From: a virus
Direction: 5' to 3' (one strand)
Virus record (IMG/VR): IMGVR_UViG_3300030060_007603
Span: 1 to 33,354 of that record
DNA length: 33,354 nucleotides
Part shown: positions 322 through 15,001 of the stretch, in pieces
How positions within the stretch are numbered: position 1 is the stretch's first letter
Layout of the letters: every line of letters begins with the position of its first letter
Translations under genes and position numbers: made by a program
Notes under the pieces: model-generated
The model's database searches: none
What the model was told of the DNA's origin: nothing
The model's input: the letters and a program-made list of their open reading frames with translations, nothing else

Positions 322-357
322 TTAACCTCCAATAATTGAATCTAAGTTTAAGACAAC

Positions 358-380
358 TAATAAACAAGCCAAGTTTATTA
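358..380. repeat. 8-bp inverted repeat upstream of DUF3768-like gene
   Basis: TAATAAAC (358-365) and GTTTATTA (373-380) are perfect inverted copies around a 7-nt centre. The repeat is in the 89-nt gap between the ArdC-like and DUF3768-like genes, 37 nt from the latter's start. A weak minus-strand promoter (TTGGCT, 16 nt, TAAACT) could overlap it, so it may be an operator. It could also be a weak AT-rich hairpin. Confidence 0.4.
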
Positions 381-397
381 AGTTAACGACAATCAAA

Positions 398-427
398 AAC
401 TTTAAGGTACTCATTGCTGAGTACCTT
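398..427 (-). terminator. Intrinsic terminator at end of ArdC-like gene
   Basis: On the minus strand a perfect 10-bp stem AAGGTACTCA/TGAGTACCTT (418-427 and 404-413) with a 4-nt loop is followed by AAAGTTTTTGATT. The stop codon of the ArdC-like gene (411-413) is inside the stem. Such a hairpin plus U-run should end the ArdC transcript. Confidence 0.65.
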
Positions 428-689
428 CATTGTTTTCAAAAGAAATCTGAGAGATATGAAAAACAGGATATTTCACCCACTCCTCTGTCAAACCTTTTTC
501 TGACAATCTCTCTCCGACCAATCTAGTAAGTCTAGCAACTGACTTTGTACCTTTAGGAACAAATCCACCCATCTTTCTAGCTTGGTTGAAAGTAAGGAAA
601 CCACCTGTAAGACCTGTTTTTTTCAAAGTCTCTACATTGATACCTTCGTAGTCTATCTCAGTAAAAGCGTTAAAAAATCTTTCACTCAT
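411..689 (-). CDS. ArdC N-terminal-domain-like antirestriction protein
   Basis: A 92-residue protein. I choose ATG 689 over the in-frame ATG at 701 because GGAGG (in the last codons of the upstream gene) sits 4 nt before 689. The order FNAFTEIDYEGINVETL, then GGFLTFNQARKMGGFVPKG, then YPVFHISQIS matches the N-terminal single-strand DNA binding domain of ArdC-type proteins (GxNxxxL, LTFxQAxxxGGxVxKG, VFxxxQ). ArdC proteins protect incoming plasmid or phage DNA from restriction. The metallopeptidase half is absent, so this is a stand-alone binding domain. It is translationally coupled to the gene before it and closed by a hairpin over its stop codon. The family call is fairly firm; antirestriction activity is inferred. 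Confidence 0.65.
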   Translation of the reverse strand: MSERFFNAFTEIDYEGINVETLKKTGLTGGFLTFNQARKMGGFVPKGTKSVARLTRLVGERLSEKGLTEEWVKYPVFHISQISFENNEGTQQ

Positions 690-690
690 A

Positions 691-864
691 TTAACCTCCA
701 TTAAAAGATAATTTTGTTAATTCATTTTCTGCGAATGACCATTCACCACCAGCGAATGATACCCAGATACGATTGTCAGAACTAATTTCCTTAACAATCC
801 CTAAATGATATTCATCAGTATCTTCAGTATATAACTGAACAAGATCGTCTTTTTTTATTTTCAT
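691..864 (-). CDS. Small conserved-type protein, unknown function
   Basis: 57 residues starting MKIKKDDLVQLY. ATG 864 is preferred to 888 because GGAG lies 7 nt upstream of it. The pattern (DLVQLY, LGIVKEI, RIWVSFAGGEWSF) looks like a short all-beta barrel such as an SH3-like fold, but I do not recognise a family. Its last codons (AAT GGA GGT TAA) serve as ribosome binding site for the ArdC-like gene, so the two are made together. It is the first gene of a small unit with its own promoter (895-922). Confidence 0.6.
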   Translation of the reverse strand: MKIKKDDLVQLYTEDTDEYHLGIVKEISSDNRIWVSFAGGEWSFAENELTKLSFNGG

Positions 865-894
865 AGTTTTCTCCGTTGAAATAATCATAATTGT

Positions 895-922
895 AATATA
901 GTTATCATTTTGATAATATCAA
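895..922 (-). promoter_or_regulatory. Promoter with operator-like palindrome in its spacer
   Basis: On the minus strand TTGATA (922-917) and TATATT (900-895) are separated by 16 nt. The spacer holds a perfect palindrome, TTATCA-ttt-TGATAA (902-916), exactly between the two boxes. This is the layout of a repressor operator. It would drive the small gene at 864 and the ArdC-like gene. Confidence 0.5.
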
Positions 923-942
923 CTAAAATCGTACTAATTATG

Positions 943-970
943 AAAAAAAGTTTACCTATGATTTATAGGG
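943..970 (-). terminator. Intrinsic terminator after the basic-protein genes
   Basis: On the minus strand CCTAT-aaatc-ATAGG (969-955) is followed by TAAAC and seven T residues (949-943). It lies just past the stop codon of the gene at 974. It separates the portal-side operon from the antirestriction unit. Confidence 0.5.
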
Positions 971-973
971 TTT

Positions 974-1249
974 TTATACTCTCCAGCTTTTCATCGCCCA
1001 ATATACAGGCTGTAATGTAACTTGCCTTCCTTTAGCTCTCATCTTTTTTAGTGTAGCTCCATGTCTGGCGAGAAATGATCTTCTTCTTGCTGGGTTGTTT
1101 TTTTTGATAGTCATGTTTGGGTCTCCGTATCTAACTTTGACTACGTTACCTGTTTTTTTATTTTTTACATAAACTGCAAATTTTTTTGATTGACCTGAAG
1201 TTCTAAATGGTTTGTTGAGCTTTACTTCACGCCCTTGATACTTAGCCAT
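974..1249 (-). CDS. Conserved phage protein with RYGDPNM-IKKNNPARR motif
   Basis: 91 residues, strongly basic. The central block VRYGDPNMTIKKNNPARRRSF-ARHG and a C-terminal YWAMKSW recur, as I remember them, in small proteins encoded near capsid and portal genes of many environmental phages and annotated only as domains of unknown function. In relatives the region before YW usually has Cys and ends AxYWSCxxW; here the Cys is absent. The start overlaps the previous gene's stop by 1 nt (TAATG). A virion-associated role is inferred from position only. Confidence 0.65.
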   Translation of the reverse strand: MAKYQGREVKLNKPFRTSGQSKKFAVYVKNKKTGNVVKVRYGDPNMTIKKNNPARRRSFLARHGATLKKMRAKGRQVTLQPVYWAMKSWRV

Positions 1250-1679: not shown

Positions 1680-3087
1680 CTTGACTTTGCTCTGGTAAGT
1701 TAGTATCAAATTGTCCTATAGCTGTAGCGTTACTTTCTATCTCAGTATTTATTGTAGATATAACCTCGTCATCATCTACAACTGAACTAGCAATCTGTTT
1801 ATCAATCTCTTTTGTAAAAGTAGCAGACTTAACTCCACTAGCTTTAGCAGTTTGTAAGAATGCTAAGTCAGACGCATAATCTCTTAAATCAAATGTATCT
1901 GGATAATCTATTTCGCCATCAAACATTTTATTTTGCCACTTAGCAAACAATGACCAGATTTGTTCTTCGCAGTTTTCTAGTAGGTCTGCTTTTTCTGATA
2001 GTCTAGCGTTTAACAATGAAAATTCAGTTTGAAGTGCGATACCTGAGTTTATAGTTTTTTCTGTTCCTCTAACTGAACCCATATGTGTAATTCTATTGAT
2101 TGCATCTACTTTCATACTAATACAACTCATTATACTATCTAATGATTGTGAACTAGGTTGTATGATATAAGGTTTAAGATCACTAGGCATATCTTCTGGT
2201 ACTTCAATAACTGAACCAGCTCCAGCAGATGCTTCTACGTTAGGAGTTTTGACTAATGAAGGGTGGTTAGATAATCTGATTAACTGTTCTATCTCTGAAT
2301 AATCATTATAGATACTTCTTTGTAGTTCAGCTACATCTGAAAGATCAGATATACCAATCGCTTTTCTTTGTGACTTTTGATTGTATAAAATTACTGCTGG
2401 TATCTCTCCGATTGCATTTATTTGTTCATCTAATAATTGTACTTTCTTACTTGCATATTCTTTTGTGTAATCTGGTACAAGATAAGTTGTTACATCTTCT
2501 TTAGTCCAAACTTTTACGATAGCTCTATCTTCGTTTACATCTTCTATAATTGTCAACATGCTTAAAGCATATTTACCATTAGGAAGTCTTTCGTATTCCC
2601 AGTTCGTAACATTCTCTGGAGTGAGTAAAGATATGTAAGGTCTTATCTCTTGTTGAAGTTCTTCAGCTCTGGTTTGTGTTATTGTTGTAGGTTTATCCAT
2701 GATCGCCCAACAAGTGCCATAGATAGAAGCGTGTTGTTGCATATCTTTTATTACATTTTGAAAACTCCTACCGTCTAAATCTGCATCTTTTAAGAATAAC
2801 TGTAACTGCGGATCTTCTGATAATGTGCCATAGTTTCTAGTTGCTGGTACTCTGAATAAAAAACTTGAATATATTTGTACTACGTTTCTACAGTGGTTAT
2901 CTAAAGGCGTGAAGTCTATCCTTTTAATAAACTCCTCATCTGATTCAAGTACATATCTGTTTAGAAAATAACCTTGACTATAGTTATCACCACCTAAAAA
3001 AGATCGTAAGTGAAATCCCCAAAGTTCTAAATTTTTATCATAATCGTTATGTTTAGCTGTTAAAAAATTTCTATCGTATTGTGCCAT
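1666..3087 (-). CDS. Portal protein
   Basis: 473 residues, a normal size for a portal. It would form the dodecameric ring at one capsid vertex through which DNA is packaged and to which the tail joins. Features are an N-terminal NDYDKNLELWGFHLRSFLGG region, a first domain with CRNVVQIYSSFLFR, a mid-protein ISDLSDVAELQRSIYNDYSEIEQLIRLSNHP stretch, and a GIALQTEFSLLNARLSEKA helix typical of the portal stem and clip. It directly follows terL with a 1-nt overlap (TAATG), the usual terL-portal order. The MuF-like gene that often follows is at the far right of the window, consistent with a circular map. Confidence 0.85.
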   Translation of the reverse strand: MAQYDRNFLTAKHNDYDKNLELWGFHLRSFLGGDNYSQGYFLNRYVLESDEEFIKRIDFTPLDNHCRNVVQIYSSFLFRVPATRNYGTLSEDPQLQLFLKDADLDGRSFQNVIKDMQQHASIYGTCWAIMDKPTTITQTRAEELQQEIRPYISLLTPENVTNWEYERLPNGKYALSMLTIIEDVNEDRAIVKVWTKEDVTTYLVPDYTKEYASKKVQLLDEQINAIGEIPAVILYNQKSQRKAIGISDLSDVAELQRSIYNDYSEIEQLIRLSNHPSLVKTPNVEASAGAGSVIEVPEDMPSDLKPYIIQPSSQSLDSIMSCISMKVDAINRITHMGSVRGTEKTINSGIALQTEFSLLNARLSEKADLLENCEEQIWSLFAKWQNKMFDGEIDYPDTFDLRDYASDLAFLQTAKASGVKSATFTKEIDKQIASSVVDDDEVISTINTEIESNATAIGQFDTNLPEQSQDGET

Positions 3088-4295
3088 TATGAAAACCTCT
3101 TAGGAGAGCTAGGTATAAAGTTTCTACGCAATGGATATAAATATTCTACCATATATCCTAATGCATCATTAAAATGATCAAATCCACTGTCTTTATCTGG
3201 CACTATAGTTCCTTCTTTGTATACTTGTCTTTCTATGCTCTTAATCATGTTTTTGCAAGTTTTTAGCATAAAAAGACTTGACATACCATTAGCATTTTTT
3301 AATTTTGTATTCACTGCATTTATTCTATCTCTAATTAATGGGTGATTAGTTCTTACTTTAACATCAAAACCAGCATTTTTCAAAATACTTAAATCAGTAA
3401 ATCCACCAGCACTAGTCTTACGTTGTCTTGATGCTGGGTCAGGATAGATAACTATTCTGTAATTTTTGTATCTGCTTTTTATTTCTTCAACCATCTCATG
3501 CGTGTTTGAACCATAAATAACTATCTCATCAAATATTGTAAGTTTGTCATTAGATATTTGTCCAACAACAGCACACATAGGATCAATGTTAAAATCCATA
3601 CCAATATGGATGGTCGCATCAAGTTTTTGATAACTATCAATAACATGAATATTACGATTAAAGTTGTAGTAAATAATACCAGAATAGCTGACAAAAGTTG
3701 CGAGATATTCCTGTTGAAATGTTCTTTCATCCAAATCATTTTTAGCTTGTTCAATTTCATCTTTACTAACCTGTCCTCCCTCAACTGTAGTATATTTAAA
3801 ACTTTGCCACTCTTTATCTTTTTTTGTGAAAAGATCATATGCGTGATTAAATCCTTTAGGCGTACCACAAAAGAGTGCATGACCTTTTTTGTCAGATAGT
3901 GTCGGTCTTAAAACTTCATACCACGCTTCAGGCTTTATGTCTTGAAACTCATCTAAGACAATGAAGTCTAAACCTACTCCTCTAAGTGATTGTTCGTTAT
4001 CAGCTCCTTTAAGTTGTATTATAGTATTATTTTTTAATGTAACCGAAAGATCACTATCATTAATTTTTTGAGCCCATTTATATTTAATTACTTGCTTCTT
4101 TAATTCATTCCAACAAATGTTTTTTGATTGTCTATAGCTAGGAGATACATACCATACTTTCCTATTGGGTATTCTACCAAATTTTGCAAGTTCGTTTATT
4201 GCTATGAAAGTTTTACCGAATCTACGACCAGATATTAGAACTCTGAATCTAGTATCACAACTTATAACATCTTTTTGAGGTTGTGTTAGTGGCAC
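3087..4295 (-). CDS. terL: Terminase large subunit
   Basis: 402 residues; the motor ATPase and headful or site-specific nuclease that packages DNA. Walker A is SGRRFGKT (22-29), Walker B with its catalytic acid is FIVLDEFQD (111-119) and the coupling motif is CGTPKG (143-148). The C-terminal RNase H-like nuclease shows acidic residues at D234 (IGMDFN), D286 (IYPDPAS) and D373/D377 (GFDHFNDALGYMVEY). All motifs are intact. It overlaps terS by 1 nt and portal by 1 nt. Confidence 0.95.
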   Translation of the reverse strand: MPLTQPQKDVISCDTRFRVLISGRRFGKTFIAINELAKFGRIPNRKVWYVSPSYRQSKNICWNELKKQVIKYKWAQKINDSDLSVTLKNNTIIQLKGADNEQSLRGVGLDFIVLDEFQDIKPEAWYEVLRPTLSDKKGHALFCGTPKGFNHAYDLFTKKDKEWQSFKYTTVEGGQVSKDEIEQAKNDLDERTFQQEYLATFVSYSGIIYYNFNRNIHVIDSYQKLDATIHIGMDFNIDPMCAVVGQISNDKLTIFDEIVIYGSNTHEMVEEIKSRYKNYRIVIYPDPASRQRKTSAGGFTDLSILKNAGFDVKVRTNHPLIRDRINAVNTKLKNANGMSSLFMLKTCKNMIKSIERQVYKEGTIVPDKDSGFDHFNDALGYMVEYLYPLRRNFIPSSPKRFS

Positions 4296-4597
4296 TAATC
4301 AATAGACCATGCTAGAGGCTGGTTATCATCTGCTAAAGGTGATTCAGCTTGGTTTAATATTTGTTTACCTAACCATATCTGCATCGTTACATTACCTTTC
4401 TCAGCACTCTTCATTTGTAGTTGTCTTAACCTAAGTTTCTGCTCTGCTCTTCCTTTTGTCAGAAATTCCGAATAACTCTTTTCAAGCAAGTCTGAAGAAC
4501 AACCATAGAAACTAGCTATTTCAATATTTGTACATCCAAATCGTGCTAAATTTTGTATTTGTTTAGGGTCTAAATTATACTTTTTCGGTCTTGCCAT
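4295..4597 (-). CDS. terS: Terminase small subunit
   Basis: 100 residues starting MARPKKYNLDPKQ. An N-terminal helix-turn-helix (NLARFGCTNIEIASFYGCSSDLLEKSY) is followed by a helical segment ending GNVTMQIWLGKQIL, a pattern common in small terminase subunits. It recognises the packaging site and regulates the large subunit. Its stop overlaps the terL start. The 62 nt upstream hold an inverted repeat and a motif shared with the ArdC promoter region, so terS may begin its own transcript. Confidence 0.85.
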   Translation of the reverse strand: MARPKKYNLDPKQIQNLARFGCTNIEIASFYGCSSDLLEKSYSEFLTKGRAEQKLRLRQLQMKSAEKGNVTMQIWLGKQILNQAESPLADDNQPLAWSID

Positions 4598-4659: not shown

Positions 4660-5364
4660 TTATTTTTTCATACAAAAAATAATACTGTCTATGAATCCTC
4701 CCCAATATCCTTTCTGTCCTTGATAGTTTTGATTATAGTAGCTTTTTTGAATATCAACATAAAAATACTTTTCTAGCTTATCTACACACTTAAAAAATGT
4801 ATCCATCTTTCTATCTTTTGTAAAACTGTATTCAAAAACTAATTTATCTATCTTATTGAAATCGTGATCATTTTGTAAAATTTCAAGCTCTGAACCTTCT
4901 ATATCTAATTTGATACAGTTGATATCTGGTTGATTCTTTAATATTTCATCTATAGCCATACAATCTATTTCAGTAGTAGGTAATTTTTTTTTATAATGTG
5001 TATGTAAAGAGTGTCTCCAAGTATTAGGAGCTATAGTAAATGTTCCTGTACCTCCGTTTTGATTAATAGCTTTTTTCTCAAGTATAAACTTACAACCTGT
5101 TTTATCGCTACAATCCATAGTATTTTTATTTAGGAGTATCCAGTTTTGATCCTCTGGTTCATAACTATAAACTTTCTTTGCACCTTTAGATGCTACGAAA
5201 CATGAGAATATACCTATATGTGCTCCTCCATCTAACCAAACATCGTCTGGGGAAATGTTAAAGTTGATCTTTTTTTTAAGATATGCTTTTTTAATAAATA
5301 TTTCTTTGATTACGTTTTCATCTGTAGTGTTAGGTCTTATTACAATATTGTTATGATCGTACAT
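4660..5364 (-). CDS. FkbM-family methyltransferase
   Basis: 234 residues. A class I SAM-dependent fold: motif I LDGGAHIGIFS (44-54), the ribose-binding acidic residue in YSYEPE (66-71), and the FkbM hallmark IKLDIEGSELEIL (151-163). FkbM enzymes usually O-methylate hydroxyl groups of sugars or small molecules. AAGGAT precedes the start, which overlaps the TET/JBP gene by 14 nt, so the two are co-translated. The adjacency suggests a role in finishing an oxidised base, for example methylating a hydroxymethyl group, but methylation of a glycan or other product is equally open. There is no DNA-methyltransferase NPPY or PCQ motif, so it is not a standard DNA base methylase. Confidence 0.8.
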   Translation of the reverse strand: MYDHNNIVIRPNTTDENVIKEIFIKKAYLKKKINFNISPDDVWLDGGAHIGIFSCFVASKGAKKVYSYEPEDQNWILLNKNTMDCSDKTGCKFILEKKAINQNGGTGTFTIAPNTWRHSLHTHYKKKLPTTEIDCMAIDEILKNQPDINCIKLDIEGSELEILQNDHDFNKIDKLVFEYSFTKDRKMDTFFKCVDKLEKYFYVDIQKSYYNQNYQGQKGYWGGFIDSIIFCMKK

Positions 5365-6262
5365 GTTTTATCCTTTGTAGTTCTTCTTCGTAAGTGCCAC
5401 ATTGCACCATTTTTTCTCTAAAATAACAAATAATAGATATTCTCTCATAAGGTTTACTACTATATGTTTCTGTATTTCCGTGTAATTCGTGAACATCAAA
5501 CAATGCTAGATCACAGTTTCTAACATCTACTGCTACTCTATACTTTGGTATAACTGTATACGCTCCTTCATATTCTCCTGTTTGTAATACTGTTAAATTA
5601 CCAAAACCTGTTGCTAAATCTCCTTTATCATAGTGAGAAGCAGTACGAAAATTTTTATTTACTGTTACAGTTGTAAACACTGTGTCTGCTATTTTAAAAT
5701 CTTTGCTAGTCTTTTCGTGATATTCTAATTGATTGTTATATCTCTCTGGCAGAAATTCTTTGAAAAGATCTGATATGCTTTTGATATATGGTATTGCTTT
5801 TTTGTAAGTATCAAAATGTCTGTAAGTAAATTCAGTAGTTCTGCAATAAGGTATTCTAGCATATCTATCAGCATAACCAATAATACTTGAATTAACATTT
5901 TTACCTTTGGCAGTATTAGAAAGTGTGCCATCTTTTTTAAGTGGTATATATTTATTACCACCTACTAATTTACCTATAACTTGACCATCTATAACATCGC
6001 CTACTTTAGCATCTATCGGACCTCCAGCGATTGCCCTATTAGAAGTTTTTCCAATAGCTTTTCTAAGTGAATAATATGCTTGCTCACATACATTAGCTGG
6101 AATACAATTTTTTTTAAAAACTAATAATGGTTCGCCATTCTCTTTTAATACTTTTGTATCTTCTGTAATTACAGTATCAAAATGAGTTTCGTTTAAAAAA
6201 GTTCCTTCTAATTTATCTATTTCTTCTTTATTTAGTTTCGGCTCTAGTTTTACTGTTTTCAT
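5351..6262 (-). CDS. TET/JBP-family 2-oxoglutarate/Fe(II) DNA dioxygenase
   Basis: 303 residues. The C-terminal half is a TET/JBP core: VTVNKNFRTASHYDKGD with the iron ligands H210 and D212, then GFGNLTVL, then VAVDVRNCDLALFDVHELHGN with the distal iron histidine (H258 or H261), then YERISIICYFREKM with the 2-oxoglutarate arginine R274. The order and spacing match the trypanosome J-base hydroxylases and phage TET/JBP proteins, which oxidise the methyl group of thymine or 5-methylcytosine in DNA. The N-terminal 190 residues form a cap region with AIAGGP (78-82) and a conserved-looking RYARIPYCRTTEFT. It overlaps the ParB-like gene by 35 nt and the FkbM gene by 14 nt. No cytosine-5 methyltransferase is in the window, so thymine, or host-made 5-methylcytosine, is the likely substrate. 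Family call firm; substrate unknown. Confidence 0.85.
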   Translation of the reverse strand: MKTVKLEPKLNKEEIDKLEGTFLNETHFDTVITEDTKVLKENGEPLLVFKKNCIPANVCEQAYYSLRKAIGKTSNRAIAGGPIDAKVGDVIDGQVIGKLVGGNKYIPLKKDGTLSNTAKGKNVNSSIIGYADRYARIPYCRTTEFTYRHFDTYKKAIPYIKSISDLFKEFLPERYNNQLEYHEKTSKDFKIADTVFTTVTVNKNFRTASHYDKGDLATGFGNLTVLQTGEYEGAYTVIPKYRVAVDVRNCDLALFDVHELHGNTETYSSKPYERISIICYFREKMVQCGTYEEELQRIKHVRS

Positions 6263-6860
6263 AAAAAGTCTTGACTACTTCATATACTGTATCTGTTATA
6301 TTGTCAGTTCCTAAATGACCATTATCTATAAGCCAATGAACCATCTTTTTAAATTCCTTTTCTTTTTCTGGGTCTAGGAATAATTGCAACATCCTAATAT
6401 TAGCTTTTTGATGTTCTTCTGTTTCTAGCTCTGTATCTCCCTCCAGGTCATTAGTTCTTTCAAACTTTGGCTCATATGCCAACATGTTTTCTATTTCTTG
6501 ACTATCAAAACCAAGATCATTTAATTCAAAATGATTATCTAATAAATCAGTGAACTCTAAATTTAGTTTACTATAATCCCAATCGCTATCTTCATTTAGT
6601 CTGTTGTCTGCTATTCTGTATGCTTTAGCTTGTGTAGGAGTAAGATCAGCAATTACTACAGGTACTTTTTTAATACCTAATTTCTTTGATGCTTCGTATC
6701 TAGTATGACCGACAATTATTTTATAACTATTATCTAAAACAATCGGCTGTTGAAAACCAAATTCTTTTATTGAACTAGCTACTTTATCTGAATTCAAATT
6801 TTTTCTTGGATTGTTGATGTATGGTATTATTTGATCTAATTCTATTTCTTGTATTTTCAT
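6228..6860 (-). CDS. ParB/sulfiredoxin-fold protein linked to TET/JBP
   Basis: 210 residues. Residues 1-90 are a ParB N-terminal domain: IPYINNPRK, then FGFQQPIVL, IVGHTRYEASKKLG (49-62) and QAKAYRIADNRLNE. The GHTR replaces GERR of classical ParB; this form occurs in phage and methylase-associated ParB-like proteins. The C-terminal half (IRMLQLFLDPEKEKEFKKM) is unlike chromosomal ParB and may bind DNA or a partner. ParB-like domains bind nucleotides and can have nuclease activity. Comparative genomics of phage TET/JBP genes (Iyer, Aravind and colleagues) linked them with ParB-like genes, so this gene probably guides or couples base modification. The start overlaps the preceding stop by 1 nt (TGATG). 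Confidence 0.8.
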   Translation of the reverse strand: MKIQEIELDQIIPYINNPRKNLNSDKVASSIKEFGFQQPIVLDNSYKIIVGHTRYEASKKLGIKKVPVVIADLTPTQAKAYRIADNRLNEDSDWDYSKLNLEFTDLLDNHFELNDLGFDSQEIENMLAYEPKFERTNDLEGDTELETEEHQKANIRMLQLFLDPEKEKEFKKMVHWLIDNGHLGTDNITDTVYEVVKTFYENSKTRAETK

Positions 6861-7848: not shown

Positions 7849-7975
7849 TTTTTTTCTCCATTATTTTTAATGCATTCTTAAAACACTTTGCCTGATAATT
7901 TGGAAAAAACAACAAATTTTCTTCAACGATCTTAATATAGTATCTGTGAAGTTTATCCAGTTCATCACTATCCAT
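7778..7975 (-). CDS. Small protein between nuclease and replication gene
   Basis: 65 residues from ATG 7975 (MDSDELDKLHRYY). The start overlaps the VRR-NUC gene by 8 nt. The last 71 nt overlap the replication gene in another frame, an unusually long overlap here, so the C-terminal part may be unconstrained. Mostly helical, with a single Cys. Unknown function. Without it there would be about 120 nt of non-coding space in an otherwise tight operon. Confidence 0.5.
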   Translation of the reverse strand: MDSDELDKLHRYYIKIVEENLLFFPNYQAKCFKNALKIMEKKNEENRLHKDRQINTVSPSTTKKR

Positions 7976-8315
7976 GATCTTTGAAAATACTATCAAGTTG
8001 TTTTTTACACTCTTTAAAAGTGCCTTTGACGACATAAAAAGGAGTTCCTAATATTGCTGATTGCATTTTCCAAATTTTCTGTGCAGTGCTTAATCTACCT
8101 TTAGGCATTTTGATTTCAACGTAGACAAACTTACTGCCTTTAAATTCTAAAATTAAATCTGGTACTCCTGATTTCATCCCCATCCTTTTTAATTTTTTCA
8201 GATACCAAACTTTTCTTTTGCCTTCGTTTGGACAATGAAAAAATCTAAATGTAAAATACTTCTGTTGCTCAACTAAGTAATTTACTATTTGTTGTTGTAG
8301 TATACCTTCATTCAT
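7968..8315 (-). CDS. VRR-NUC domain nuclease
   Basis: 115 residues, the usual length of phage VRR-NUC proteins. The PD-(D/E)XK core is GMKSGVPDLIL (catalytic D53), YVEIKMPKG (E67, K69) and LSTAQK (Q79), preceded by RFFHCPNEGKR. Members cleave structured DNA such as Holliday junctions or flaps. It is the first gene of the leftward operon, next to replication genes, so a role in recombination or replication clean-up is likely. No clear ribosome site precedes ATG 8315. Confidence 0.85.
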   Translation of the reverse strand: MNEGILQQQIVNYLVEQQKYFTFRFFHCPNEGKRKVWYLKKLKRMGMKSGVPDLILEFKGSKFVYVEIKMPKGRLSTAQKIWKMQSAILGTPFYVVKGTFKECKKQLDSIFKDHG

Positions 8316-10609: not shown

Positions 10610-10826
10610 TCTAGCTCCTGTTCATTCAAAGTATGTATTTAATGCAATACTGAAAGAGAAAGATCTAGAGATAGTTTATAAAGATCAAAGCATGATCATA
10701 CCTTATGATCGTTTAGATAAACCTAAAAAGATGGTTTATGTAACTGATAAATTTACAGGAGAAAAAAAACATCTTTATTATTTTGATTGGATACCTGTTG
10801 ATCCGAATCAAGGGAGGTTACTATGA
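10575..10826 (+). CDS. Small protein, unknown
   Basis: 83 residues; GGAG lies 8 nt before ATG 10575, inside the HNH gene (35-nt overlap). It contains LAPVHSKYVFNAILKEKDLEIVY and YVTDKFTGEKKHLYYFDWIPVDP, which looks like a compact beta protein. Overlap of 4 nt with the next gene. No family recognised. Confidence 0.6.
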   Translation: MIKHTIKTLFGNLAPVHSKYVFNAILKEKDLEIVYKDQSMIIPYDRLDKPKKMVYVTDKFTGEKKHLYYFDWIPVDPNQGRLL

Positions 10827-11614
10827 TATCATTAGAACCAACGATAGATAAAAAAATTTTTGAAAAGTATGATCTTTTGCCTTTATATCCTTCTAGGATA
10901 AATAGTTGGCGAGACTTTCCCTGTGGATTCGTTTTGAAGTATATCTATGGTTATGACTTTGCTACTAATCCAAAGATGCATAGAGGTACATCTATAGAGT
11001 TAGGTATTCATTATATGTTTTCACATGAAAAGACTATTGATGAAGGTCTAGAGAAAGCTCTATCAGTTTATGATGATATGGCTAAGTGGTTCAAAGATCA
11101 AGATAGTGCGATGAAAGAAAGAGAACTATTAGGTGCATATTTTATGAACTCTATTGATTATTTAGAACCATATAGAAGATATTATGCTAGTTATCAGATG
11201 GAGATAAATACTAAAATATTAGGTATACCCTTTTCTGGTAAAACTGATTTTATTTTTAAAGATGGAGACAAGTACAAAGTTATAGATCTTAAAACTAAAA
11301 GCAGATTAGACAAGAGGCATAGTGATTTTATACAACAAGCTATTTACAAAAAAGGAATGCTAGAAACAGTTGCTCCAGAAAATTTGAGTGTACAGATGCT
11401 GATAGCTACGCCAAAAAAGTATGAAGTTATCAAAATTGATGATATAAGCGATTATATGAAAGAGATTGAAATGTCATTAATCAGTATGGCTAATCTTTTC
11501 AAAATTTGTAAATCAAAAGAAAATTTCGCATCTATAGTTACTCCGAATCTTGGAGATTGGCATTGGTATGATGAAGATCAAATTAATGCTAGAAAAGAGA
11601 TTTGGGGAGTGTAA
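10823..11614 (+). CDS. PD-(D/E)XK exonuclease-like protein (RecB/Cas4-type)
   Basis: 263 residues. N-terminal SRINSWRDFPCGFVLKYIYGY (a tyrosine- and cysteine-bearing helix typical of this group) and RGTSIELGIHYMF (54-66) precede the catalytic core FSGKTDFIF (D142), YKVIDLKTK (D155, K157) and FIQQAIY (Q171, Y175). All active-site residues are present. There is no C-terminal Cys cluster for an iron-sulfur site. It probably acts as the exonuclease that feeds the annealing protein encoded upstream. Last gene before the structured region and terminator. Confidence 0.8.
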   Translation: MISLEPTIDKKIFEKYDLLPLYPSRINSWRDFPCGFVLKYIYGYDFATNPKMHRGTSIELGIHYMFSHEKTIDEGLEKALSVYDDMAKWFKDQDSAMKERELLGAYFMNSIDYLEPYRRYYASYQMEINTKILGIPFSGKTDFIFKDGDKYKVIDLKTKSRLDKRHSDFIQQAIYKKGMLETVAPENLSVQMLIATPKKYEVIKIDDISDYMKEIEMSLISMANLFKICKSKENFASIVTPNLGDWHWYDEDQINARKEIWGV

Positions 11615-13514: not shown

Positions 13515-13750
13515 ATCGTTAACCCTACTTTCAAATCGTCTTCATCTGGTTTAGCTTTCTCTTCTTTTTTAATGAGCCTATCTAAATACCATCTAGCTTT
13601 CTTTAGATCTTCTATACCATTTTTATCTCTATGCCTCACTATATATTTAACTATATTACCTTCAAAATAGTTAAGATTGAATTCTGAGATAAAATCAGAT
13701 ACTTGTATTCTTGTACCTACGTAATAATCAGGGTTTATCTTGTCTTTCAT
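13511..13750 (-). CDS. DUF3310 family protein
   Basis: 79 residues with INPDYYVGTRIQVSDFISEFNL, then YFEGNIVKYIVRHRDKNGIEDLKKARWYLDRLI. This is the DUF3310 pattern (GNxxKYxxRxxxKxGxxDLxKAxWYLxRLI), common in phages and of unknown biochemical role, sometimes labelled a nucleotide kinase without proof. Here it lies between the phosphoesterase and endolysin. Its start overlaps the upstream gene by 23 nt. Confidence 0.8.
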   Translation of the reverse strand: MKDKINPDYYVGTRIQVSDFISEFNLNYFEGNIVKYIVRHRDKNGIEDLKKARWYLDRLIKKEEKAKPDEDDLKVGLTI

Positions 13751-14813
13751 ATTTATCCTTTAGTTCTATCATACTTAAAAATTGATGCGATTGTACATGA
13801 CTATCGCAAATCATAAGCGTTGTTATCCCATATGACCAGCCATTAGCACTGTTTTTTGCATATCCTTCAATATGACCATAATCCATACAAGTACCAACAT
13901 TTATAATCTTTACATAATTACCCCTACCCAATTTTGAAGCTCTCCATGATCTTTCTCTATGACTATGACCAAATACTATATCATGTGTTGCACCATTAGA
14001 AACTTGACTTGCTTCTGCCATCTTGCCTCCAATCTCTCTACCCATTTCATTGAGAGGAACATGAACAAAAGCCACTCCACGTATGAAGTAAAAATCTCCG
14101 TACTCTGATATTCCCCAACCTCTACGCCTAAATAAAGTTTCATATTGTTGTGAAAAAGCTCCTACTACTTCTTTATGTTCATCTTCATATCTATAAAGTC
14201 TTAATTCATGATTACCTAAACAGTAATGCTTGTGAGGGTTGATATCTCCCATACCCTCTTCTAAAAGTTTTATACAATCTTCTGTAGCGTTTATGTCTGC
14301 TAGTATAGGTGGTTTTTTTTGACCTTTAACAGTATGATTTTTATCAAAGGTACTACAAGAATCAAAACTACAAAAGTCACCAATACACACAAGATAGTCT
14401 GGGTTATAATCTCTTATAGCTCTACCAATCCAATAAAACCTTTCGTGATTATCTTCTATAGATATGTGAGCATCTGGTATTACGAAAACTTTTACAGGAT
14501 CAGAAAAAGTTGTTGGTTGTGCAGATATTCTTACGACAGGTTTTTTATATTCTTCAATAATTACTTGAGGTTTTGTTTCTTTGTATCTATGCCATTCAAT
14601 AGTCCAATGAGAACTCATCAAAGCAAGTTTTTCAATCTTATCTATTTTTCTTTGAAGTGATGTTCTAGGAATGCCTGTAACTTCTTCTACAACTTTTTTT
14701 GCACCCTTTGGGTTATGAGGTCCTCCTTTACCCAGAGGAGGATAACCTTTGTCTAATGCTTCGTGGAGTTTCTCTTGTATAAGTTTGAGTTCATCCCACT
14801 CTTTATCGTCCAT
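13728..14813 (-). CDS. Calcineurin-like metallophosphoesterase
   Basis: 361 residues from ATG 14813, chosen because the upstream stop overlaps it (TAATG); the frame is open for 63 nt further but those codons lie inside the neighbour. Residues 1-60 carry an HTH-like segment (VEEVTGIPRTSLQRKIDKIE). The catalytic core shows D114-x-H116 (IPDAHIS), GDF (D146), GNHE (200-203) and GHSH (282-285), all metal ligands of the family. Substrate may be DNA, RNA or a nucleotide. An HTH joined to a phosphoesterase suggests DNA targeting. Confidence 0.85.
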   Translation of the reverse strand: MDDKEWDELKLIQEKLHEALDKGYPPLGKGGPHNPKGAKKVVEEVTGIPRTSLQRKIDKIEKLALMSSHWTIEWHRYKETKPQVIIEEYKKPVVRISAQPTTFSDPVKVFVIPDAHISIEDNHERFYWIGRAIRDYNPDYLVCIGDFCSFDSCSTFDKNHTVKGQKKPPILADINATEDCIKLLEEGMGDINPHKHYCLGNHELRLYRYEDEHKEVVGAFSQQYETLFRRRGWGISEYGDFYFIRGVAFVHVPLNEMGREIGGKMAEASQVSNGATHDIVFGHSHRERSWRASKLGRGNYVKIINVGTCMDYGHIEGYAKNSANGWSYGITTLMICDSHVQSHQFLSMIELKDKYERQDKP

Positions 14814-15001
14814 TAGCCAAGCATACGCAATATCCAAGCAATAAATTGTGTAGCAACCATAAAACCTATTGCCCATAAAATATAGTTTAGGCGATCTATA
14901 TCTTTTTGCATGTGCTTTAGATGATTGTTTTCAATTAAGTCTAGCTTACTATAAATGTGGAGGATATGCTCTTTAGTAGTTTTAGGTGTTGGTTTGCTCA
15001 T
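14813..15001 (-). CDS. Coiled-coil protein with C-terminal membrane span
   Basis: 62 residues: MSKPTPKTTKEHILHIYSKLDLIENNHLKHMQKDIDRLNY followed by LWAIGFMVATQFIAWILRMLG, one transmembrane helix. The layout, a soluble coiled coil then one C-terminal span, resembles XhlA-type phage lysis helpers. Overlaps by 1 nt with the phosphoesterase. Likely envelope or lysis related; not certain. Confidence 0.6.
   Translation of the reverse strand: MSKPTPKTTKEHILHIYSKLDLIENNHLKHMQKDIDRLNYILWAIGFMVATQFIAWILRMLG

Follow-up and report, generated by a model that had tools for sequence, protein, structure and literature searches.

The DNA stretch analyzed here (hereafter, the window) spans an entire IMG/VR record, 33,354 bases in length, of a marine bacteriophage. 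It contains a cassette of three minus-strand genes, encoding a ParB-like protein, a Tet_JBP dioxygenase and a FkbM-family methyltransferase. Genes for a TerS-like protein and for the large terminase subunit adjoin the cassette, and a portal gene comes next. The features are as follows:

6228–6860, minus strand: ParB-like (ParB_N) protein of 210 aa, first gene of the cassette (PF02195, E 1.2e-12)
5351–6262, minus strand: TET/JBP Fe(II)/2-oxoglutarate dioxygenase of 303 aa (PF12851, E 4.1e-26)
4660–5364, minus strand: FkbM-family SAM-dependent methyltransferase of 234 aa, in the tailoring slot (PF05050, E 3.8e-15; TIGR01444, E 4.6e-17)
4295–4597, minus strand: TerS-like small protein of 100 aa (phrog_309 terminase small subunit, E 1.2e-4, a weak match)
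3087–4295, minus strand: TerL, terminase large subunit (PF03237, E 2.6e-12; PF17289, E 2.4e-7; phrog_2, E 2e-49)

The ParB-like and TET genes overlap by 35 nt (6228–6262) and the TET and FkbM genes by 14 nt (5351–5364), exactly the values, strand and location given in a preliminary description of this DNA. As the MKT start of TET is kept in close relatives, the gene overlap is real. That description also placed terS next to the cassette: a small gene (4597–4295) does adjoin FkbM, but its assignment to TerS is weak, whereas TerL is clear. Among annotated phages, Pelagibacter phage HTVC112P is closest to the window phage, for which a SAR11 host is therefore likely. Both share the gene order (ParB-TET-FkbM-TerS-like...TerL), with identities of 69% for TET, 65% for FkbM and 67% for the capsid protein; the corresponding overlaps in HTVC112P are of 4 and 11 nt. 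In HTVC112P, as in nearly every TETpel locus reaching that far, the gene after FkbM is a homologue of the TerS-like gene, and the terminase neighborhood of the cassette is conserved. From this adjacency comes the idea that the terminase may select modified DNA for packaging. Elsewhere in the window there are genes for a PD-(D/E)XK nuclease (PDDEXK_1; 10823–11614), a VRR-NUC nuclease (7968–8315) and a calcineurin-like phosphoesterase (13728–14876).

The ParB-like protein matches phrog_620 (E 6e-47), the DNA methyltransferase family phrog_498 (E 5.5e-42) and, over residues 1–147, the PADLOC model MTase_II (E 6e-33). By these similarities, it is related to the ParB domains that are fused to DNA methyltransferases. 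The ParB-like gene of the Prochlorococcus phage MED4-184 cassette (L021, 4315–4956) is annotated as "DNA methylase", a label that probably stems from its resemblance to the ParB part of such fusions. There is also a weak match of the window protein (6228–6860) to the ADP-dependent serine kinase SerK (E 5e-5), so the protein might have a role in nucleotide-dependent transfer. ParBc domains have also been noted next to another phage base-modification system (PMC12783734).

The dioxygenase scores 91.6 bits against PF12851, above the curated threshold of 34.9. When 27 TETs were aligned, the iron residues H210, D212 and H261 and the 2-oxoglutarate residue R274 were invariant, and H258 was present in the window-type class alone. 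H210, D212 and R274 are hence as previously claimed, while of the two candidates proposed for the third iron ligand, H258 and H261, the latter has to be chosen because it is the invariant one. A sequence search of solved structures with TET gave no match. The AlphaFold model (pLDDT 95.2) matched human TET2 best (4nm6, Z 21.7), followed by NgTET1 (Z 19.4) and CMD1 (Z 18.9); other 2-oxoglutarate oxygenases and AlkB-type enzymes reached Z values of about 14. The modelled fold is that of a TET-type double-stranded beta-helix and not of the AlkB type. Two TET classes, window-type and MED4-type, were distinguished, which are only about 20% identical. Some members carry other names in public records. 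The TET/JBP gene of HTVC112P (gp18; L001, 7599–8507) is annotated as "DnaJ chaperone / putative SNF2 DNA repair protein", and the TET/JBP-like genes of mycobacteriophages and MED4 cyanophages appear in several RefSeq records as "queuine tRNA-ribosyltransferase" (e.g., L162, 855–1787, NC_051582.1), probably a misannotation.

The methyltransferase scores 56.9 bits against PF05050 (cut-off 22.7) and 62.8 against TIGR01444 (cut-off 37.7). Residues D45, G47, G51, E69, K152-x-D154-I155-E156-G157 and E159 are invariant among 29 relatives, so that the SAM and K-x-DIEGxE motifs are all kept, in agreement with the intact SAM site reported earlier.

To analyze how often TET and FkbM occur together, viral contigs were scanned three times, with the window TET, with the MED4-184 TET and with a FkbM alignment. 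Among the 13 loci found with the window TET, FkbM lies directly after TET in nine; one locus ends at that point, and the remaining three are TETs of larger phages without FkbM. The MED4-184 TET retrieved 80 loci. FkbM directly precedes TET in 68 of them, the TET-associated glycosyltransferase TAGT (PF20691) occupies the slot in five, the slot between ParB and TET is empty in six and one locus is incomplete. In the FkbM-anchored scan, TET adjoins FkbM in 52 of 57 loci. The clear exceptions, L071 and L072, both encode distant FkbMs, that of L071 among glycan genes; FkbM without TET is found in few loci, most of which have distant FkbMs or are incomplete. There are many near-copies among the loci, and the MED4-type TETs collapse to 32 distinct rows. 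The preliminary description had made its proposal dependent on FkbM being found beside TET/JBP in related phages, and this pairing turned out to be common. The arrangement was encountered in about 100 contigs. It is found widely among pelagiphages and Prochlorococcus siphophages, and two cultured phages, HTVC112P and MED4-184/P-HS2, have it as well. Gene order is ParB-TET-FkbM in the pelagiphages and ParB-FkbM-TET in the cyanophages, with the terminase genes following in both. The link between TET and FkbM therefore survives rearrangement. Median dN/dS values are 0.04 for FkbM, 0.06 and 0.10 for the TET classes and 0.07 for ParB, which indicates strong purifying selection on the cassette genes. 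Chance adjacency is ruled out by these medians together with the recurrence of the cassette.

The loci with TAGT provide a second line of evidence. When L142, which carries TAGT (E 4e-13), was compared with L111, which carries FkbM (E 1.6e-12), both flanks of the slot were 93.4–93.5% identical at the nucleotide level; identity falls at the end of ParB and resumes at the start of TET, and the two slot genes have no meaningful similarity to each other. L141, a TAGT locus, is 94.6% identical to the FkbM-bearing L113 on the TET side. The same exchange is seen, with synteny and at about 70–72% identity, between the TAGT loci L145 and L146 and the FkbM locus L121. As L141 and L142 come from different metagenomes and share the arrangement, an assembly chimera was rejected as the source of the TAGT form. 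The slot is precisely empty in L096, L097 and L114–L117, and these loci retain ParB and TET, so FkbM is not essential. Within the other TET class, the order ParB-TET-TAGT is found in L149 (a Winogradskyella MAG) and L151 (a Spirulina MAG). FkbM and TAGT were never found together in one cassette among the loci examined, and the option that FkbM acts on a sugar added by TAGT was discarded on these grounds. Taking into account that FkbM trades places with a TET-associated glycosyltransferase, both enzymes most likely act on the same hydroxyl. This natural exchange represents a ready-made comparison of the effect of the final cap against host defence. Other genes have also been noticed next to TET. 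Two unnamed genes of phage LilMcDreamy (genes 3 and 4; L162, 1784–3759), located between TET and terminase, may be further tailoring enzymes, and the unassigned genes directly after TET in the MAG-borne loci L152 (8884–9444) and L150 (8979–9623) possibly encode tailoring enzymes, too.

In a maximum-likelihood tree, the TET-linked FkbMs (29 sequences) group together in a single clade with support 97/93. The outgroup was small and had long branches; it consisted of 19 other FkbMs from five genomes and phages, the cellular ones being those of genomes behind L150–L157. The clade is supported, not exhaustive. Its members occur with both of the distant TET classes and in both gene orders, and L055 joins a window-class TET to a cyanophage-type FkbM; together with the tree, this pairing indicates that the FkbM lineage crosses TET classes. 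Exactly one PF05050 gene per genome is present in the 17 records with the FkbM cassette that were checked. Among the checked phages with TAGT, the kinase or an empty slot, no such gene was found apart from a single unlinked copy in DLP6. The TAGT phage L142 has, far from the cassette, a FkbM-like gene (329–985, minus strand) outside the TET-linked clade.

The conserved pairing, the exchange of slot, the private FkbM clade and the layout of related actinophage operons (see below) argue that FkbM is the tailoring enzyme for the hydroxymethyl group that TET makes. Judged from sequence comparison, we consider it probable that the cassette is a DNA hypermodification system in which FkbM O-methylates that group, and likely that a new DNA letter is made by it. 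A more specific joint reading, to which we assign a probability of roughly 0.4, is that the product is a new base of abundant marine phages, 5-methoxymethyl-2'-deoxyuridine, made post-replicatively by TET/JBP and a DNA-acting FkbM O-methylase, the latter being derived from small-molecule methylases and competing with DNA glycosyltransferases for one exchangeable slot.

The base modified is the first point at which this reading may be challenged. Hydroxylation of either thymine or 5-methylcytosine had been suggested for TET, and thymine is favored, since the cytosine-C5 methylase that would supply 5-methylcytosine is nearly always absent and the operons of the actinophage relatives are built around 5hmU. 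No cytosine-C5 methylase (PF00145) was found in the window or in 50 of 52 related records, HTVC112P and MED4-184 included, nor in the other TET phages checked except Melnitz; thymidylate-synthase-type hydroxymethylases were likewise absent from 20 records. The Tet/JBP proteins of actinophages are homologues of the MED4-type TETs, with matches in 89 phage records. The same cassette might instead act on cytosine: the host, or in rare cases the phage, would make 5-methylcytosine, TET would convert it to 5hmC and FkbM would turn this into 5-methoxymethylcytosine. Phage TETs beside a C5-methylase do exist (Melnitz), and two cyanophage-type records with the FkbM-TET cassette, G034 (L148) and G036 (L147), have a gene for a cytosine-C5 methylase at a distance of some kilobases and may represent a cytosine-targeting variant. 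In addition, the aspartate at +5 from the first iron histidine of the window-class TET (D215) is also present in the Melnitz TET, which may hint at cytosine as the target of this class; near this site, MED4-type TETs have N and actinophage TETs F or N, and the two TET classes could prefer different bases according to this difference (D vs N). The TAGT sequence family moreover includes hmC-glycosylating enzymes (PMC13390438). We nevertheless regard a cytosine product as unlikely, given the lack of the methylase in 50 of the 52 records, the little modification that sparse host 5-methylcytosine would allow and the 5hmU-centered operons of the actinophages.

A second challenge concerns the acceptor of FkbM. 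Most characterized FkbM enzymes are small-molecule or glycan O-methylases, and the enzyme of the window might accordingly be unrelated to the TET product and O-methylate a host or virion component (sugar, lipid or protein), merely sharing a late operon. The distant phage FkbM of L071 lies among glycan genes, and no acceptor emerges from the fold. The preliminary description had proposed structure prediction together with a search of the FkbM acceptor pocket; the TET fold was confirmed, but the acceptor of FkbM was not revealed. The FkbM model (pLDDT 85.3) is a generic Rossmann methylase, for which the FkbM structure 2py6 (Z 12.2, 19% identity) has the highest identity among the matches listed. 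The RNA methylases RsmD, Trm5a and TrmR score as high, and with so many Rossmann methylases tied the fold does not tell which acceptor is used. Sequence searches of solved structures with FkbM returned weak arginine-methylase matches and nothing else. The suggestion that FkbM acts on the TET-made hydroxymethyl group has hence gained strong comparative support (two gene orders, slot exchange, private clade) but none from the fold. An enzyme unrelated to TET is quite improbable: its clade is private to TET loci, it is swapped one for one with a TET-associated glycosyltransferase, and its adjacency to TET outlasts the inversion of gene order in genomes that have no other FkbM. FkbM might also methylate DNA or RNA elsewhere, for example a base (directly, at N or O) or tRNA, in parallel to TET and not after it. 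This would fit the RNA methylases among the nearest folds and a weak Pfam link to TRM5-TYW2 in two FkbM members, but we hold it to be very improbable: FkbM and TAGT exclude each other in one slot, which suggests that they have an acceptor in common, and FkbM is so rarely found without TET.

Under the favored reading, a methylated thymine derivative, the ParB-like protein would be an accessory that binds DNA or nucleotides and assists the enzymes in reaching phage DNA. TET/JBP would hydroxylate the C5 methyl of a pyrimidine in this DNA, preferably converting thymine to 5-hydroxymethyluracil, and FkbM would transfer the SAM methyl to the new hydroxyl oxygen, yielding 5-methoxymethyl-uracil (or -cytosine). 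We propose this O-methyl step because of the slot exchange with the glycosyltransferase and the O-methylase character of the family. Other phage hypermodifications shield DNA from host nucleases, and the capped base might hide virion DNA in the same manner. FkbM would then be the counterpart of the glycosyltransferase, or of the 5hmU kinase with aGPT-PPlase2, in related phages. The known ways in which hydroxymethyl bases of phage DNA are tailored are glycosylation, amination and carbamoylation (PMC12783734); O-methylation, if true, would add the simplest possible cap to these types. Our literature search, of partial coverage such that an earlier mention is possible, found no paper joining FkbM with TET or with 5-hydroxymethyl bases; within the literature searched, this would be the first DNA role for the FkbM family.

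Several known systems resemble the cassette. Actinophage operons with the order ParB - Tet/JBP - aGPT-Pplase2 - 5hmU DNA kinase - terminase have been described as thymidine hypermodification operons (PMC11955845). Those of Rhodococcus phage Tonitrus and Gordonia phage Wooper share with the window the ParB-like gene, the terminase that follows and the absence of a C5-methylase, and their Tet/JBP is homologous, with 25–26% identity to the MED4-type TET. They differ in that tailoring is carried out by the 5hmU DNA kinase and aGPT-PPlase2, without FkbM; neither gene is present between ParB and TerL of the window, where FkbM occupies the slot. In the TET-TAGT modules (Nonlabens phage P12024L; L149, L151, L141–L146) a tailoring gene also lies directly beside TET, in most cases with ParB before and terminase after, but a glycosyltransferase (PF20691) replaces the methylase. 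The C5-methylase-TET module of Methylophilales phage Melnitz has the same TET/JBP iron and 2-oxoglutarate residues; there, a phage cytosine-C5 methylase overlaps TET, whereas the window and most of its relatives lack it. In kinetoplastids, base J is made by JBP and a glycosyltransferase, tailoring being glucosylation. The enzyme family is the same and, if thymine is the target, so is the succession of thymine hydroxylation and tailoring of the hydroxyl; what sets the window phage apart is that methylation, and not glucosylation, is predicted for the last step.
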